Positions 16,246 through 35,303 of a stretch of 42,056 bases of DNA are shown here, piece by piece. The notes below the pieces were generated by a model, which was not told the DNA's origin, did no database searches, and saw only the letters and a list, made by a program, of their open reading frames with translations. The first letter of the stretch is position 1. Each line of letters opens with the position of its first letter. Source of the stretch: an uncultured Bacteroidales bacterium (GTDB lineage: Bacteria > Bacteroidota > Bacteroidia > Bacteroidales > Bacteroidaceae); contig CAMGHE010000002.1 of the NCBI GenBank assembly GCA_946055775.1, positions 1-42,056 of the forward strand, in the 5' to 3' direction. A program made the translations under genes and the position numbers.

Positions 16246-17784
16246 TCAGACCTGTGTGTCGTGGCCATCCTCCAGGCGGTTGAGCATCTTGATGGTGGCC
16301 TTGATGGCGGCGCAGGTCTGGTCGGCGTCGAGGGCGCTGGTGCGGTAGGTGCGGCCGTCCATTTCCCAGGTGATGAGGGTCTGGACGAAGGCGTCGGTGC
16401 GGCCGCCGGGGGGGATGGTGACGTTATAGTCGGTCAGCGTGGGGAAGGGGCGGTGCAGGCGGCGCGTGTAAATCTTCCGCAGGGCGCGGACGAAGGCGTC
16501 AAACTGGCCGTCGCCGGCCGACTGCGCCTGGTACGGGCGGCCGTCGATCTCTACCTTAATAGAGGCTGTGGGCTGCAGGCCGTGGGCCGTGGTGACGAGG
16601 TAGCTCACCAGGCGGACGCGGGCCTCGGGGGCATCGTGGTGGAGCACGTCGGCCACGATGTAGGGCAGGTCGTCCGGCGTGACGCGCTCCTTGCGGTCGC
16701 CCAGTTGGATGATGTGCTGCGTGACGCGGCGCGTCTGCTCGGCCGTCAGTTCCAAGCCCATGGCCTGCAGGTTGCGGGCGATGTTGGCCTTGCCGCTGTT
16801 CTTGCCCAGGGCATAGGCACGCTGGCGGCCGAAGCGCTCGGGGATGAGGGCGTTGCAGTAGAGGCCCGACTTGTTGTCGCCGTCGGCATGGACGCCTGCT
16901 ACCTGCGTGAAGACGTTGCGGCCCACGATGGGGCGGTTGGCCGGGACGGCAATGCCGCTGATGCTCTCCACCAGTCGGCTCATGGCATAGAGGCATGCCT
17001 CGTTGATGTGCGTCTGCAGGTGGAAGTGGTCCTTGAGGATGGCCTGCACGCTCGATAGCGGTGCGTTGCCGGCGCGTTCGCCCAGGCCGTTGACGGCGGT
17101 ATGGATGCCCTGGATGCCCGAGAGGATGGCCGCCGAGACGTTGGCGATGGCCAGGTCGTAGTCGTTATGGGCATGGAAGTCGAAGTGGCAGTCGGGGTAG
17201 CGCGAGCGCATCTTACGGAAATAGCCGACGGCCGAGAGCGGGTCGAGCACGCCCAGCGTGTCGGGCAGCATGAAGCGGCGCACGCCGTGGTCCTTGAGAG
17301 CATCGACCAGGGCGAAGACATACTGCTCGTTGTCGCGTATGCCGTTGCTCCAGTCTTCCAGATAGACATTGACGGTCATACCCTGTGCTGTGGCGTAGCC
17401 TATCTCGTCGAGGATGTCGGCGATGTGCTCTTCGGGGGTCTTGCGCAGCTGTAGCGTGCAGTGGCGGTGTGAGCCCTTGCACAGCAGGTTGACCACGCGG
17501 CCGCCGCAGGAGCGTATCCAGTCGATGGAGGCGTGGCGGTCGATGAAGCCCAGCACTTCCACGCGGTCGGCCATGCCCTCCGAGGCTGCCCAGCGGCATA
17601 TCTGGCTCACGGCGTCGTGCTCGCCGTCCGAGACGCGGGCCGAGGCCACCTCGATGCGATCTACGCCGACGTCGCGGAGCAGTTTGCGGGCAATCTGCAG
17701 TTTTTCGTGCGGCACGAAGGCCACGCCGTCCGTCTGTTCGCCGTCGCGCAGCGTGGTGTCCATGATTTCTATCGCTTGGCTCAT
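16246..17784 (-). CDS. 2-isopropylmalate synthase/citramalate synthase family protein (second LeuA-like paralog)
   Basis: '[16 protein letters not shown]', 'FDFHAHNDYDLAIAN', 'VNGLGERAGNAPL', C-terminal LeuA regulatory-like region. Confidence 0.85.
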   Translation of the reverse strand: MSQAIEIMDTTLRDGEQTDGVAFVPHEKLQIARKLLRDVGVDRIEVASARVSDGEHDAVSQICRWAASEGMADRVEVLGFIDRHASIDWIRSCGGRVVNLLCKGSHRHCTLQLRKTPEEHIADILDEIGYATAQGMTVNVYLEDWSNGIRDNEQYVFALVDALKDHGVRRFMLPDTLGVLDPLSAVGYFRKMRSRYPDCHFDFHAHNDYDLAIANVSAAILSGIQGIHTAVNGLGERAGNAPLSSVQAILKDHFHLQTHINEACLYAMSRLVESISGIAVPANRPIVGRNVFTQVAGVHADGDNKSGLYCNALIPERFGRQRAYALGKNSGKANIARNLQAMGLELTAEQTRRVTQHIIQLGDRKERVTPDDLPYIVADVLHHDAPEARVRLVSYLVTTAHGLQPTASIKVEIDGRPYQAQSAGDGQFDAFVRALRKIYTRRLHRPFPTLTDYNVTIPPGGRTDAFVQTLITWEMDGRTYRTSALDADQTCAAIKATIKMLNRLEDGHDTQV

Positions 17785-20281: not shown

Positions 20282-21802
20282 TTAGAGTTCGTCGTCGGCG
20301 GTCGGCGCCTTGCGGAATTTGTTGATGCAGTCGATGTAAGCCTCCACGCTGGCGGTGACGATGTCGGTGTTGGCGCCGAAGCCGTAGTAGATATGTCCGT
20401 CATACTCTACCTGCATGTGCACCTTGCCCACGTCGTCGCTGCCCTTGTTGATGGCCTGGATGGTGAACTCGCGGAGCACCATCTTGCGCTTGATGATCTC
20501 CTTGAGGGCGTTGATGGCGGCATCGACGGGACCGTTGCCCTCGGCGGCGGCATGAAACTTCTCGCCGGCGATGTCCAGATGGATGGCCGCTACGGGGCGC
20601 ACGCCGTGGCCGCTGGTCACCTGCAGATAGTCGAGTTTGATGCTGTGCTGCTCGCTGCGCTCGGCGCCGGCCAGCACCAGCACGTCGTCGTCGGTAATCT
20701 CCTTCTTCTTGTCGGCCAGGCGCAGGAAAGCCTCGTAAATCTTGTCCAACTTCTTGTCCGATACGGTGATGCCCAGCACCTCCAGACGGTGCTTGAGCGC
20801 GGCGCGTCCCGAGCGGGCCGTCAAGATGATGGCGTTGTCGTCGATGCCCACGTCCTTGGGGTTGATAATCTCGTAGGTCTCCACGTTCTTGAGCACGCCG
20901 TCCTGGTGGATGCCCGACGAGTGGGCAAAGGCGTTGCGGCCCACGATGGCTTTGTTGGGCTGGACGGGCATGTTCATCAGCGAACTGATCATGCGGCTGG
21001 TGGCGGCAATCTTCGTCGTGTTGATGTTCGTCTGGATGTCCAGGTCGTGGTGGCACTTCAGGATCATCGCTATCTCCTCCTCGCTGGTGTTGCCCGCGCG
21101 CTCACCGATGCCGTTGATGGTCACCTCCACCTGACGGGCGCCGTTGAGCACGCCCTCGAGGGTGCAGGCCGTGGCCATGCCCAGGTCGTTGTGGCAGTGG
21201 GTGGAGAGGATGGCGTTGTGCACGCCATCGACGTGCTCCATCAGGTACTTGATTTTCTCGCCATAGACGCGCGGCAGGCAGTAGCCCGTGGTGTCGGGGA
21301 TGTTGACCACGGTGGCGCCGGCCTTGATGACCGCCTCGACCACGCGGGCCAGGTATTCGTTGTCGGTGCGGCCGGCGTCCTCGGCATAAAACTCGACGTC
21401 TTCCACATAGCGCTTGGCATACTTCACGGCGGCCACGGCGCGCTCGATGATCTCCTCGCGGGTGGAGTTGAACTTATAGCGTATGTGGCTGTCGCTCGTG
21501 CCGATGCCCGTGTGGATGCGCTTGTGCTTGGCATACTGCAGGGCCTCGGCGGCGCAGTCGATGTCCTTTTCCACGGCGCGCGTCAGGGCGCAGATGGTGG
21601 GCCAGGTCACGGCCTTGGAAATCTCGATGACGGAGTTGAAGTCGCCCGGGCTGGAGATGGGGAAGCCCGCCTCGATGACGTCCACGCCGAGGGCCTCCAG
21701 TTGCTTGGCCACCTGAATCTTCTCAATGGTGTTGAGTTGGCAGCCGGGCACCTGTTCGCCGTCGCGCAGCGTGGTGTCGAAGATGTAGAGTCTGTCGCTC
21801 AT
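20282..21802 (-). CDS. leuA: 2-isopropylmalate synthase
   Basis: '[19 protein letters not shown]', '[13 protein letters not shown]', '[14 protein letters not shown]', '[11 protein letters not shown]'. Confidence 0.93.
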
Positions 21803-22031: not shown

Positions 22032-22220
22032 GCGATTCTTTGACAAATGACCTATTATTTGCCAAGAAAAATGACAGATGGCTGAAAGTTGGGCCTCTAA
22101 TCCGCCCTTCATCGCCGCGCCGCGCCGCCCGTTTGCCCTGCCTCGCGCCGCCCCGCTTGCCCCGCCGCGCGCCGCCCCGCCGCCGCGTCGTTTCGGCCAA
22201 TGCTCGGCCATCCATAGAAA

Positions 22221-22571
22221 TTCCCAAGCCGCTTGGGAACACGATTCCCAAGGGCTGGGAATTCGATTCCCAAGGGCTGGGAACATGATTCCCAAGGGCT
22301 GGGAACACGATTCCCAGCGGCTGGGAATTTTGTTCTCGGTGTGCCGGAAAATTCTCCATGCGCTGGTACATCGAGTGTCGGCCCTTGGTACATCGAGTGC
22401 CAGCCGCGGGTACATCGAGTGCCGGCCGCTGGTACATCGAGTGCCAGCCGCTGGTACTTCAATTGCCAGCCGCTGGCAATTCAATTGCCGGCCGCGGGCA
22501 ATGCGATTGCCAGCCCTTGGCAATGCGATTGCCAAGCCCGGTGGTAATCGCTTTGCCGGGTCACGTGGCCA
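22221..22571. repeat. Array of about 15 tandem 22-bp palindromic units (three sequence families)
   Basis: Units at 22221, 22245, 22267, 22289, 22311, 22333, 22353, 22375, 22397, 22419, 22441, 22463, 22485, 22507 and 22529; each is a 6-bp inverted repeat with a 5-bp loop. Confidence 0.95.
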
Positions 22572-22826: not shown

Positions 22827-23651
22827 CTATGCTTTTTCGGAGGGGGTGGCGGCAGACTGTTTGCCCTTCAGCCGGCCGTAGTGGAGGCGCTTGAGGGTAT
22901 TGATGCCGAAGAGGGCGATGACGAGGCGCTTGGTCAGGTCGAAGGACACCATATATATATAGTACCATACGGCGCGCAGCCGGCTGCCGCCGTTGTTGGT
23001 CACGACGTGCATGATGTCGTAGCGCTTGCGGTAGGACCAGGCACCCGACACACCGCCCAGGCGAAACTCGGCGATGTCGGTATCGACATACTTGAACGTG
23101 GCGCCGCGCTGGTAGAAGCGCGTCAGCAAGTCGTAGTCCATCATGTAGCGAAACTTCTTGTCGTACAGTCCGTAGCGCTGGTAGGCCTCTGGAGTGATGA
23201 ACGTGCCCTGATGGGCGCAGCGTATGGTGAGGGGCGCCAAGGGGAAACGCATGGAGGGCACCTCGCGACCGCGGTAGTCGGTGTCGGCATTGGCCACGAT
23301 GACGTTGCCGCGATAGACGTCGGTGCAGCCGTCGTAGGCCCGGGCCACGCTGGTCAGGGCGCCCGGCAGCAGGATGTCGTCGCTGTTGATCATGACGATG
23401 AGGTCGCCCTTGGCGGCGGCGATGCCCTTGTTGAAGGCGTCGCTGATGCCCTCGTCGGGCTCGGAGACGAAATAGCCCAGACGGTCGCGGTAGCGCGCGA
23501 CGATGTCGAGGGTGCGGTCCTTGCTGCCACCGTCGATGATGACATAGTCGATGTGCGGGTAGTCTTGCGCGAGGACGCTCCGGATGGTGCCCTCGATGCA
23601 GGCTTCGCTGTTATAGCAAATCGTGATGACAGAGATGAGAGGCTGTTTCAT
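22827..23651 (-). CDS. GT2-family glycosyltransferase
   Basis: 'PLISVITICYNSEACIEGTIRSVLAQDYPHIDYVIIDGGSKDRT'; start ATG 23651 overlaps the upstream stop. Confidence 0.9.
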   Translation of the reverse strand: MKQPLISVITICYNSEACIEGTIRSVLAQDYPHIDYVIIDGGSKDRTLDIVARYRDRLGYFVSEPDEGISDAFNKGIAAAKGDLIVMINSDDILLPGALTSVARAYDGCTDVYRGNVIVANADTDYRGREVPSMRFPLAPLTIRCAHQGTFITPEAYQRYGLYDKKFRYMMDYDLLTRFYQRGATFKYVDTDIAEFRLGGVSGAWSYRKRYDIMHVVTNNGGSRLRAVWYYIYMVSFDLTKRLVIALFGINTLKRLHYGRLKGKQSAATPSEKA

Positions 23652-24580
23652 GCTTGTGGCGTGGTTGGCTTGTGGTTCAGCACTTCCCGGCGGAAGCGGG
23701 TGAAGGCTTCTTCGTAGGTCGGGTCGATGGGGCGGCGCAGGCACTTCTTCAGGCGCAGTTTCATGCCGACCCACCGCCAGTAGAGGCCGCGCGAGGCGAT
23801 GCGGTGCTTGCGCAGGTAGTAGTCCGTTGATTGGAGGAAGGCCAGATAGCGGCTGGCGGGCACCTGGCGGCCGTGGCCCTCGAGGTGGATGATGCGCAGC
23901 GGCAGGATGCGCAGGCGCCGCTCCGGCAGGCGGCGCATAAGGTCGGGCTCCTCGTTGCAGAGGAAGATGTTCTCGTCGAAGCCCCCGGCCGCCTCAAAAC
24001 GACGGCGCGACAGGGCGAAGGCGGCGCCCCAGGGCCAGGCGATGCGGTTGACGGGGCGCAGACGGTTCACCGAGCCCAGGAACGAGAGACGCTCCAGCAG
24101 GTGGAGCAGGGGGAAGATATAGACGTATTCGGGGAAGTAGGAGTAGGTGTCGTTGCGCCGCCCCTCGGGGTCGGTCAGCGAATAGCCCAGCACGAGGCGG
24201 TCGTCGTCCTCCAGCATACGCACCGTGGTAGAGAACACGTCCTCGGTGACGATGGTGTCGGGGTTGAGGAAGAGGATCTGCGGCGCGACGGTATGGGCCA
24301 CGCCGACGTTGTTGCCGCCGCCGAAGCCATTGTTGCGGGCGTTGGCCACATAGCGCGGGCAGAAGGTGTAGTGCCTCTCGGCCATGGCTGCCTCGAGGCC
24401 CGTGTCGGGCTTGTTGTCCACGACGACGACCTCCAGCGCCGTGCCCATCGGGTTGTGGCGGCTGATGCTGTCTAAGCAGGGCAGGATGACGGCGTTGCTG
24501 TCGTAGGCCACGATGATGACCGCCAGCCGGGCGCCGGCCGTCGTGTCGCCGTGCTGCGAAGAGGATGTGGGGTGTGTCAT
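23648..24580 (-). CDS. GT2-family glycosyltransferase (rhamnosyltransferase-like)
   Basis: 'LAVIIVAYDSNAVILPCLDSI', 'ARNNGFGGGNNVGV', 'FLNPDTIV'. Confidence 0.88.
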   Translation of the reverse strand: MTHPTSSSQHGDTTAGARLAVIIVAYDSNAVILPCLDSISRHNPMGTALEVVVVDNKPDTGLEAAMAERHYTFCPRYVANARNNGFGGGNNVGVAHTVAPQILFLNPDTIVTEDVFSTTVRMLEDDDRLVLGYSLTDPEGRRNDTYSYFPEYVYIFPLLHLLERLSFLGSVNRLRPVNRIAWPWGAAFALSRRRFEAAGGFDENIFLCNEEPDLMRRLPERRLRILPLRIIHLEGHGRQVPASRYLAFLQSTDYYLRKHRIASRGLYWRWVGMKLRLKKCLRRPIDPTYEEAFTRFRREVLNHKPTTPQA

Positions 24581-24588
24581 GGCGAGGG

Positions 24589-25680
24589 TTATTTCTCCAT
24601 CAGGAACAGGTACTCCTTGTTCTTACCGTTATCGTTTATCCATTCGTTGGTCCAGCAGAAGCCGGACATGACGTTCTTCTTATAGTCAATCTCTTTGGCA
24701 GAGACCAGACGGCCGTGGGTGTGGATGATGTCGTAGAGTTCCTGTCTGGTGGCCCTGCCTCCCGAACTGTAGGAGAGGAGGATGTACCGGGCGTTGGTCT
24801 CGGAAATCATGCGGTCGATAGCCTGCATGGCGATGAACCTGCCGCTGTCGTCCCTCCTGAACTCCTCGAAGACGGAGGCCGAAACGACGTCGTGGGTGTC
24901 GTCCCTGCGGTTGGCCTTGCCAAAGAGGGTGGGGCGGTCGTTGAGGATAATGGTCTTCCAGAGGTGGTAGTAGGAGGCGTAGCGCACGCGGCTCGGCGGC
25001 ATCTTCTCGTTGTTTGAGCCGTAGGGCGGGTCAAGGTACACCAGGTCGTGATAGGTCTTTATCGCGTCGAAGATGTCGCCCTTCATGGTCTTGTTTTCTG
25101 ACGTGCGGCGGAAACGCTTGGGCAACTCCATCTTCATGGTGTGGTACGACCGTGCGGACCAGCCCGACAGGTAGGCCACGAAGTGCCCCAGCGTGTTGTC
25201 GACAGCGTCCATGGCGCGTATCAGACTGGTCAGGATGACGCACTTGTCGATGTAGTCGAGGTGCAGGTCGTCGATGCGGTCGCGGATGGCGTCGAGTTTC
25301 CGGGTGTTGTGCGCTTGGAACGGCCTTTTGCCCTTCTCGTCCTGACCGCCATAGTGCTCGGTGAACCAGCCGTCGTACCCTTCCAGACTGTTCAGTTCGT
25401 CGATGATTTCGCGGTAATAGGCGTCGGGCTTGTCGGCCACCAGATAGCAGTTGCCAAACACCTCAGACCACTCGGCGATGTCGTTGCTGGTGGTTTGGTA
25501 GCCCATCTGCGCGAAAGCCTGTGCCACCCTCGTGGTGCCGGCGAAGCCGTCGAGGACGCTGCTGACGTTGAGGTCCTGTATGGTGCTGACGATGTGGGGT
25601 AGCAGCTTGAGCTTCGATCCAATGTACTTTATCCCCTCAGTCTGCGGGGTTTCTATGTCGCCAAAGAGTCCTCTCTGCAT
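24589..25680 (-). CDS. D12-class N6-adenine DNA methyltransferase
   Basis: 'IKYIGSKLKLLPHI', 'VLDGFAGTTRVAQAF' (SAM motif), 'LVYLDPPYGSNN' (DPPY). Confidence 0.85.
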   Translation of the reverse strand: MQRGLFGDIETPQTEGIKYIGSKLKLLPHIVSTIQDLNVSSVLDGFAGTTRVAQAFAQMGYQTTSNDIAEWSEVFGNCYLVADKPDAYYREIIDELNSLEGYDGWFTEHYGGQDEKGKRPFQAHNTRKLDAIRDRIDDLHLDYIDKCVILTSLIRAMDAVDNTLGHFVAYLSGWSARSYHTMKMELPKRFRRTSENKTMKGDIFDAIKTYHDLVYLDPPYGSNNEKMPPSRVRYASYYHLWKTIILNDRPTLFGKANRRDDTHDVVSASVFEEFRRDDSGRFIAMQAIDRMISETNARYILLSYSSGGRATRQELYDIIHTHGRLVSAKEIDYKKNVMSGFCWTNEWINDNGKNKEYLFLMEK

Positions 25681-25681
25681 G

Positions 25682-26554
25682 TCAGTGTGATGTGGAAAAG
25701 AAGCGGTCGATGTCTTCCTGAAGTATGGTGTTCGCGGCGTGGTGTCCTTGGGCTGTGGCATTGAGAGCCAGTCGGAACAACTTCACCAGCGCGTCGTTGT
25801 GCTCGTATGAAATCCAACCGTTGGTCAGACTCTTGAAGTAACTATAAGCGTATTGGGTATGTGTCCACAGGCCACGTTGAAGCGCGTTGGCCTCCGGACC
25901 TCCATATCTCACCTCGCAGATATAGCGTCCATGCTCGTCGAGGAAGAGGTAGATAGGGTGCTTCCGCGTATAACTTTCAGATAAGGTCTGGGTCTCGGTA
26001 TTGTAATGGTAATCCTTGGGGACGTAAAGAATGCGCCTCGTATCGCGCACCATCTTCTCGAAGTCAAACACCATGATGTTGCACTCGAGTTTCTTCTCTT
26101 TGTAAATCAGAGGTAATACGTTGATTTGTGATAAGCCTTTGAAGGCGTCGGAAGAGAAGATTTTTGCGATGCCCTCTAAATCAGAGATATCTTTTCCGCG
26201 TTGCTCCAGTTCAGGAAACATTTTGGCCTCCTTGTCCGTAGAGAGTTGGAGCGGTCCATCGCCGTAAGCTTTGATACTGACGGGGAAGGACGAGTTAGAG
26301 AGTTCGTCCTTGATGACGATGTCCTCCTCGTGTGTCTTGGCGCGAAACCTTTCCTTACCCACGTGCAGGCAGTCGTAATTGTACATAAACTGGTGTATGA
26401 ACTCAGTGAGGCCAATTTCCGCCATGTCTCCATGTGTCTTGTTGCCGACGAGACGCATGGTGAAGATGTTGGAAAGCGTGTTGACAATCAATTCCGGACG
26501 CTTCTTGGCGAGGATTTGAAAGTGTGCCTGAAAGTCTTGATAGTTGGCAGCCAT
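25682..26554 (-). CDS. Putative type II restriction endonuclease partner of the methyltransferase
   Basis: 1-bp gap to the methyltransferase; 'EEDIVIKDELSNSSFPVSIKAYGDG' compatible with a PD-(D/E)xK-like core; lower GC than neighbours by eye. Confidence 0.5.
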   Translation of the reverse strand: MAANYQDFQAHFQILAKKRPELIVNTLSNIFTMRLVGNKTHGDMAEIGLTEFIHQFMYNYDCLHVGKERFRAKTHEEDIVIKDELSNSSFPVSIKAYGDGPLQLSTDKEAKMFPELEQRGKDISDLEGIAKIFSSDAFKGLSQINVLPLIYKEKKLECNIMVFDFEKMVRDTRRILYVPKDYHYNTETQTLSESYTRKHPIYLFLDEHGRYICEVRYGGPEANALQRGLWTHTQYAYSYFKSLTNGWISYEHNDALVKLFRLALNATAQGHHAANTILQEDIDRFFSTSH

Positions 26555-26576
26555 AGTACTTCTGGAGTTAACCGTG

Positions 26577-27617
26577 TTATATCTGCAGCAATTGCGTGTA
26601 GAGCACGTCGATGAGGAAGATGCCACAGACGTAGATGAGGATGAGGAGGCGGGCGGCCCAGACGGGGCGGATGATATGGATGAGCAGCGGTACCATCAGA
26701 ATCTCCACGAAGCCGAAGAGCTCGCTGATGCGGGCGGCATAGACGGCGATGAAGTTGAACACGCCCAAGCAGATATACGACAGAGCGAATATCTTGAGCA
26801 GCAGCGTGATGTAGGGGCAGTGGGCCTTGACCTCGTCATACTTCCAGAGCAGGACGTAATAGACCATCATCTTGAGCATGATGGCGGCGTTGAAGATGTT
26901 GATCTGCTCCACCTCGGCCAGGCCCTTGTCCTTGATATCCTCGTAGAGCATGAGTTTGTCCTGGACAAAGTCGAGGGGGACGAGGGTGATAAAGTCGATG
27001 TTGTACAGTACCGATGCGAAGGCCATGCACGGGGCGAAGGCCAGCACCACGCGGTGCCAATTCTTCAGGTCGTTGTTGCGGAAGAGGAGCATCAGGAAGG
27101 CCATGATGGCCGTGATGTGGAAGAAGATGGCTACGCCGAAGAGCGCCGCCGTGACCCACCGCTGGCGCTGCACCATGAAGTAGAAGCCCAGAATGATGAA
27201 GGCCACTGCCGCACCCACACGGATCTGTGTCATGTCGTGCAGGATGAGGAAGTGGCTCATATAGACCGCGATGAGCAGGAAGTAGTCCTTGTTCAGGTGG
27301 GTGAAGATGAAGCACTTGAGGGGAATGGCCAGCAGGGCATAGACGATGAAGATGCCCTGCACGTCGCCCAGCGTGGCGCGCACGCTCTCGCTGATGAAGA
27401 TGAAGGTGGGCTCGACCATGTCGTCGAAGTTGCCCAGGTAGTAACTGTAATACTGCAGCGAGTCTTTGTCGATGCCCAGGGGACGCAGGCCGGCCATCAG
27501 CGTGATACTGGCAGCTATGCCGGCATACACCAGGATGCGCGTGACGGGCCGCTCGTCTCTGAGAAAAGAGAAGGCGACCGCCGTGACCATGAGCAGGAAG
27601 AGTAGGGCAACGAACAT
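26577..27617 (-). CDS. EpsG-family polysaccharide polymerase (Wzy-like)
   Basis: Polytopic; 'AGLRPLGIDKDSLQYYSYYLG', 'TQIRVGAAVAFIILGFYFMVQRQRW...FHITAIMAFLMLLF'. Confidence 0.75.
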   Translation of the reverse strand: MFVALLFLLMVTAVAFSFLRDERPVTRILVYAGIAASITLMAGLRPLGIDKDSLQYYSYYLGNFDDMVEPTFIFISESVRATLGDVQGIFIVYALLAIPLKCFIFTHLNKDYFLLIAVYMSHFLILHDMTQIRVGAAVAFIILGFYFMVQRQRWVTAALFGVAIFFHITAIMAFLMLLFRNNDLKNWHRVVLAFAPCMAFASVLYNIDFITLVPLDFVQDKLMLYEDIKDKGLAEVEQINIFNAAIMLKMMVYYVLLWKYDEVKAHCPYITLLLKIFALSYICLGVFNFIAVYAARISELFGFVEILMVPLLIHIIRPVWAARLLILIYVCGIFLIDVLYTQLLQI

Positions 27618-35049: not shown

Positions 35050-35112
35050 AGTTTGCCTATATTATATATATGTGTGTTTCTCTTGGCGGGCATCTTCAGC
35101 GGCAGCCTTCGA

Positions 35113-35194
35113 TTATGCTTGGCTTATGCTTGGCTTACGCTTGGCTTATGCTAAGCCTGGCTTATGCTTGGTCTATGCTTGGCTTATGCTTGGC
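35113..35194. repeat. 11-bp tandem repeat (TTATGCTTGGC), seven units, one carrying a 5-bp insertion
   Basis: Units at 35113, 35124, 35135, 35146 (16 bp), 35162, 35173 and 35184. Confidence 0.95.
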
Positions 35195-35303
35195 GGACTT
35201 CTTTCGGCGGCCTTCGCTGATGTGTTTCTCGTGGCAGTTCGCCCCGTGTGCAACGTGCGTCTGGCATTGCACAGAGACGCGGCAAAGGTGCACAGAGGCG
35301 CGG

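Follow-up and report, generated by a model that had tools for sequence, protein, structure and literature searches.

Genes of the DUF6078 family (PF19555) are genetically linked to arrays of 22-bp repeats, a linkage that is strongly supported and points to an undescribed protein–repeat partnership. One such array spans positions 22221–22547 of the window, by which we mean the whole 42,056-nt stretch of contig CAMGHE010000002.1, from an uncultured Bacteroidales bacterium, that was analysed here. With a probability of roughly two in three, the window array is a scattered copy from a repeat family belonging to a DUF6078 gene, the protein of which would bind the half-sites of the repeat.

Within the window array, half-sites of the TNCC(A) type alternate in orientation, giving a dyad every 11 bp and a unit of 22 bp; over 22222–22547, their spacing alternates 10/12. 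TRF called period-22 arrays at 22220–22327 and 22361–22520, and 220 of the 329 positions compared in 22221–22571 match at lag 22, against 85 on average and at most 113 in first-order Markov simulations (n=1000), bearing out the 22-bp periodicity and the alternating half-sites at 11-bp dyads of the original prediction. Its three repeat families are indeed clustered in the order A, B, C. Block A (22245–22333), delimited by sequence, TRF and lag/half-site analysis, consists of TTCCCA-N5-TGGGAA units in 22-bp steps and is separated by a decayed stretch with degenerate half-sites (22334–22374; sequence and half-site analysis) from block B (22375–22458; sequence, TRF and half-site analysis), whose GTGCCA-N5-TGGTAC units have incompletely complementary arms. 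Block C (22463–22523) follows with TTGCCA-N5-TGGCAA units. Arms pair at 43/43 scored arm positions in block A and at 62/79 in blocks B and C. The array is bounded by end units at 22221–22239 (TTCCCA-N7-TGGGAA, preceded by AAA) and 22529–22547 (TTGCCA-N7-TGGTAA), both defined from the sequence and the latter also by half-site analysis; their 7-nt loop (CCA-N7-TGG), which contrasts with the N5 of the internal units, is also present at the ends of many other arrays. None of these array features is assigned to a strand.

The neighbouring genes are leuA (20282–21802, minus strand; HMGL-like and LeuA_dimer domains) and a glycosyltransferase family 2 gene (22830–23774, minus strand; gene call and domain match). 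A leu promoter had been placed 190 bp from the array but was not confirmed: the start of leuA lies at a distance of ~420 bp, and a search for sigma-70-like sites, with a consensus unsuited to Bacteroidota, found none. Likewise, the EPS operon terminator proposed upstream of the array was not confirmed. ORFs cross the array on both strands, but a coding role was rejected because the frame changes from one 22-bp unit to the next and arrays are almost all intergenic according to the gene calls. The remainder of the window also contains a GC-rich 24-bp tandem repeat of 2.5 copies on the leuA side of the array (22121–22180, TRF); about seven intergenic 11-bp direct repeats (TTATGCTTGGC) at 35112–35195, which are not inverted and apparently represent another kind of repeat; a second LeuA-like gene (16246–17784, HMGL/LeuA_dimer) downstream in the leu cluster; and, at 24589–26626 between glycosyltransferase and EpsG genes, a D12-class adenine methyltransferase gene beside a 314-aa ORF without a Pfam match, a pair resembling a restriction-modification cassette within the EPS operon.

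The search for further genomic copies that the original prediction had called for returned ~25 other loci in the source genome matching the window array DNA, the arrays being intergenic. A two-unit pattern in which only CCA and TGG are fixed (CCA-N5-TGG-N11-CCA-N5-TGG) matched this genome 50 times on each strand and its reversed control 0 times, which excludes a chance origin genome-wide. CCA-N5-TGG is the recognition sequence of PflMI; a restriction site was set aside as an explanation once array families with other half-sites appeared. The source genome is a draft (85 % complete) with many arrays at contig ends (C19, C32, C33, C64, C80, C117, C138 and C140), a location suggesting that arrays probably break short-read assemblies. 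The sister species G029, most of whose flanks are ~97–98 % identical to those of the source genome (G000), shares many array sites with it and, as the proposed comparison of relatives revealed, differs in the number of units at them. Other species of the genus possess arrays with other sequences, the geometry being common to all, and further Bacteroidaceae likewise combine this geometry with sequences of their own. A strict three-unit pattern was detected in 10/400 Bacteroidaceae genomes, representing 5 genera, and, outside the Bacteroidaceae, in one genome only among 399 drawn from the phylum. All except one (a two-unit match) of ~80 arrays in fifteen genomes lie between genes as called by a simple script. 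Relative to other intergenic regions of the same stretches (86 tandem, 19 convergent and 48 divergent), array contexts (40, 20 and 12, respectively) are more often convergent and less often divergent (p 0.005).

An all-against-all comparison of 538 array-near proteins yielded one family that directly adjoins arrays (22–57 bp) in three genera, seen in G000, G029, G016, G065 and G309. This family is DUF6078, whose members are ~145 aa long and share four invariant cysteines, and it is the sole family that repeatedly adjoins arrays across genera. DUF6078 occurs in 172/400 Bacteroidaceae genomes and in 9/10 strict-array genomes (p 0.003); in G048 (87 % complete), an array is present and DUF6078 was not found. 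The source genome yielded one DUF6078 gene (contig C4) with an array 3′ of it, and the half-site of that array (TTGCCA/TGGCAA) is that of block C in the window, while blocks A and B have no gene match in this genome, 85 % complete and with that one DUF6078 gene found. Searches of PDB, PADLOC, NCBIfam and PHROG with DUF6078 returned no significant relative, and a literature search covering few subscription journals returned no paper naming DUF6078 or PF19555.

The reverse test supports the same linkage. A 22-bp-periodic array lies within 350–450 bp of 70/98 DUF6078 genes pooled from three samples, compared with a lag-22 array in 1/84 control flanks of other genes at the same loci (Fisher p 1e-15, counting the 84 control flanks as 42 genes). 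In the first sample, the threshold of 26/40 lag-22 matches, applied within 350 bp of the DUF6078 gene, is passed by 50/70 loci, and lags other than 21–23 give 0–2; most of these loci came from genomes without CCA/TGG arrays, and 1/70 (G065) had originally been found via its array. The second sample was drawn from records of plasmids and phages, including B. finegoldii, P. distasonis and the spirochaete T. saccharophilum; its loci have an array in 9/9 cases, all 3′ and within 450 bp, and the third sample returned a lag-22 array at 11/19 loci. Several of the 28/98 loci lacking an array at threshold fall narrowly below it. The linkage thus extends to Parabacteroides, which belongs to another family, and to Treponema saccharophilum, which belongs to another phylum; on pTS1 of the latter (L382), the 22-bp array lies directly 3′ of the DUF6078 gene, reflecting either inter-phylum transfer or an ancient system. 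Arrays are positioned 3′ of the gene in 45/54 gene-linked cases, and a group of similar DUF6078 genes (L304, L305, L307, L323, L357, L358 and L366) has them 5′ instead. It is highly improbable that these are ordinary minisatellites, i.e. slippage repeats without a partner protein that lie near DUF6078 by chance. Such an origin is compatible with the varying unit number at the same sites in G000 and G029; however, the DUF6078 link is repeated in three samples, the 22-bp period is fixed despite unrelated sequences and the half-sites are selectively kept. As a full explanation, the minisatellite account is refuted by the linkage statistics.

Gene-linked arrays have a half-site specific to each DUF6078 type. 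The mean cosine between array k-mer profiles is 0.05 below 40 % protein identity and 0.83 above 85 % (Mantel p 0.0005), and 11/12 within-genome pairs of DUF6078 paralogs have unrelated arrays (cosine 0.00–0.04), the exception being a 75 % identical pair. Ortholog arrays agree (GTACC in G309, G404 and G287; GTGCC in G309 and G287), an agreement for which shared descent of the gene and its neighbouring DNA partly accounts. For proteins that are 40–85 % identical, the similarity of their arrays tracks C-terminal identity (partial r 0.38), and no such relation holds for the N-terminal half (−0.05). One naturally occurring DUF6078 chimera (L356, G108), whose array lies 240 bp from the gene, is 97 % identical to L321 in its N half and 43 % in its C half, and the array half-site differs; the chimera agrees, though only suggestively, with the C-terminal half setting the half-site.

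Families of gene-linked arrays are dispersed through their own genome in P. distasonis and in genus g3. Using a TGCC-type pattern taken from gene-linked arrays, dispersed copies were predicted beforehand in five genomes and found in 5/5 (8–34 matches), while the reversed control gave 0 matches in all 24 genomes. Five further genomes also match (3–22 matches): in G275, TGCC arrays lie beside two DUF6078 genes; G263, G355 and G383 possess two to five DUF6078 genes each, a subset of which was examined; and G404 has TGCC arrays, yet 0/3 of its examined DUF6078 loci are of TGCC type. The two DUF6078 genes of P. distasonis TSDC17.2-1.1, a strain with records that are labelled ‘plasmid’ but resemble pieces of chromosome, have linked arrays of GTTTC and AGTAC type. 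The arrays beside these two genes match 28 and 12 places, most of them unannotated and all from Parabacteroides records. A phage origin of the arrays was considered and rejected: in each of 13 viral contigs the pattern matches once, with no array beyond that, and no DUF6078 relatives were found in viral contigs. Six ‘phage’ records with DUF6078 are unannotated faecal contigs and may be bacterial.

The half-sites are better conserved than the DNA between them. In the arrays of G309 (genus g3), most half-site positions carry 1.6–2.0 bits and most spacer positions 0.0–0.3 bits, and orthologous arrays of different species differ at 21/210 half-site versus 77/252 spacer positions (p 5e-8; one array entered two comparisons). 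Low divergence of half-sites beside drifting spacers therefore indicates that half-sites are under selection or are preferentially copied.

Two options had been offered for the window array, a multi-site protein-binding array or a series of hairpins under pairing selection, and the former fits whereas the latter does not hold as a general rule. The arm covariation that was to be sought in relatives is present in the source genus, where the base beside CCA/TGG is paired at 0.67 against 0.39 expected; however, this base is anti-correlated in G065 (0.25 vs 0.45) and G279 (0.06 vs 0.48) and is never paired in G048 and G027, which have the geometry of the window array. Some gene-linked arrays join two unlike half-sites (e.g. 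GTTTC with GTGCC in L329), and half-sites are not always self-complementary. We consider it improbable that the arrays act as transcribed RNA hairpins, whether as stabilisers of mRNA 3′ ends, terminators or RNA-binding sites for DUF6078. The predominantly 3′ position of gene-linked arrays (45/54), the enrichment between convergent genes and the frequent complementarity of array arms would all suit such a role, but sense-strand mismatches show no excess of G-U over A-C, either in tandem contexts (107 and 105) or in arrays 3′ of DUF6078 genes (56 and 91). Moreover, several families have unlike, non-complementary half-sites, arrays also occur between divergent genes and 5′ of one DUF6078 gene group, and an Rfam search with the array gave no match near the gathering score. 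RNA hairpins were set aside on the absence of wobble asymmetry; together with the unlike half-sites, this argues for DNA, and a protein that reads half-sites on DNA would fit better than pairing selection on hairpins.

Several known systems bear comparison. The view that the array is not a CRISPR holds: its units are tandem and palindromic, as in CRISPR, but array spacers are ~5–8 bp rather than unique 20–40 bp sequences, and are repeated across arrays with none unique, the arrays occur at many sites per genome, and no cas genes were seen beside the window array. Iterons and multi-operator arrays likewise present tandem sites about two helical turns apart to a dedicated protein, often near its gene. 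Iterons, however, are direct repeats at plasmid origins, whereas DUF6078-type arrays consist of alternating inverted half-sites at many chromosomal sites.

A closer likeness is to the ‘REPtrons’ formed by REP/BIME sequences and RAYT (TnpA-REP) proteins, in which palindromic repeats flank the gene, related copies are scattered over intergenic sites, the repeat diversifies together with the protein and several families occur per genome (PMC2817692, PMC8266576). DUF6078 arrays are similarly gene-linked, dispersed in the genome and co-diversifying with the protein, a likeness rather than membership. RAYTs are Y1/HuH tyrosine transposases to which DUF6078 is unrelated, and REPs are single 20–40-bp hairpins with a GTAG-type head; here, this head and the one imperfect palindrome per unit are absent, and the units are contiguous 22-bp repeats with gene-specific half-sites of 5–6 bp. 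No Y1 transposase (PF01797) was found in G309 (one contig, 99 %), G065 (three contigs, 99 %) or the draft G000, and a RAYT as array partner was rejected on its absence from the array-rich G309 and G065. Protein family, repeat architecture and the lack of Y1 in G309 and G065 together exclude REP/RAYT membership.

DUF6078 might still drive a selfish REP-like family, spreading or maintaining arrays for its own persistence, with dispersed arrays lacking a host function. Gene-linked repeats, dispersed copies and lineage-specific families are what REP/RAYT pairs display, unit number changes between sister species, and the excess between convergent genes and deficit between divergent ones place arrays where insertions harm least. 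We nevertheless regard this as unlikely, given that half-sites are kept at dispersed orthologous sites while spacers drift, a retention unexpected for idle copies unless gene conversion maintains them, and that no nuclease or transposase family matches DUF6078.

The resemblance to Porphyromonas MITE tandem repeats that had been suggested did not survive comparison, as the BrickBuilt consensus AGAYCATARTATCCTCTCRTRTG of P. gingivalis is 23 nt long and lacks alternating inverted half-sites (PMC4596501). Both are intergenic, dispersed tandem repeats of about 22–23 nt that break assemblies; however, BrickBuilt differs in sequence and is part of elements that carry IS-type terminal inverted repeats, and a DUF6078 link is unreported for it (PMC4596501). 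An unsystematic look at array edges noticed no IS-family terminal inverted repeats.

The simplest reading of these sequence comparisons would be direct recognition of the half-sites in double-stranded DNA by DUF6078. The small, four-cysteine protein would bind its own half-site, probably with each half-site taken up by a single subunit and the subunits lined up on the same face of the helix, and its C-terminal half would set which half-site is bound. Least certain are the consequences: once occupied, intergenic arrays may act as platforms for regulation or for organising the chromosome, and the array linked to the gene may permit autoregulation of DUF6078. Selection on half-sites would be expected if arrays have a part in regulation or in chromosome organisation, and the spread of arrays if their cycle is selfish and REP-like. 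The broader proposal, for and against which we see the case as evenly balanced, is that DUF6078 proteins are small proteins of metal-binding type with private, fast-changing half-sites, which build or read arrays beside their gene and genome-wide as an addressing system in at least two phyla.

These results tie an uncharacterised family, present in 172 of the 400 sampled Bacteroidaceae genomes, to a specific candidate DNA partner and account for one class of repeats that break assemblies of gut bacteria. Natural DUF6078–array pairs number in the dozens and, with same-cell paralogs and a chimera among them, constitute a data set on how DNA specificity changes; if the proposal is true, they would represent readable protein–DNA co-evolution within a genome-wide addressing system.
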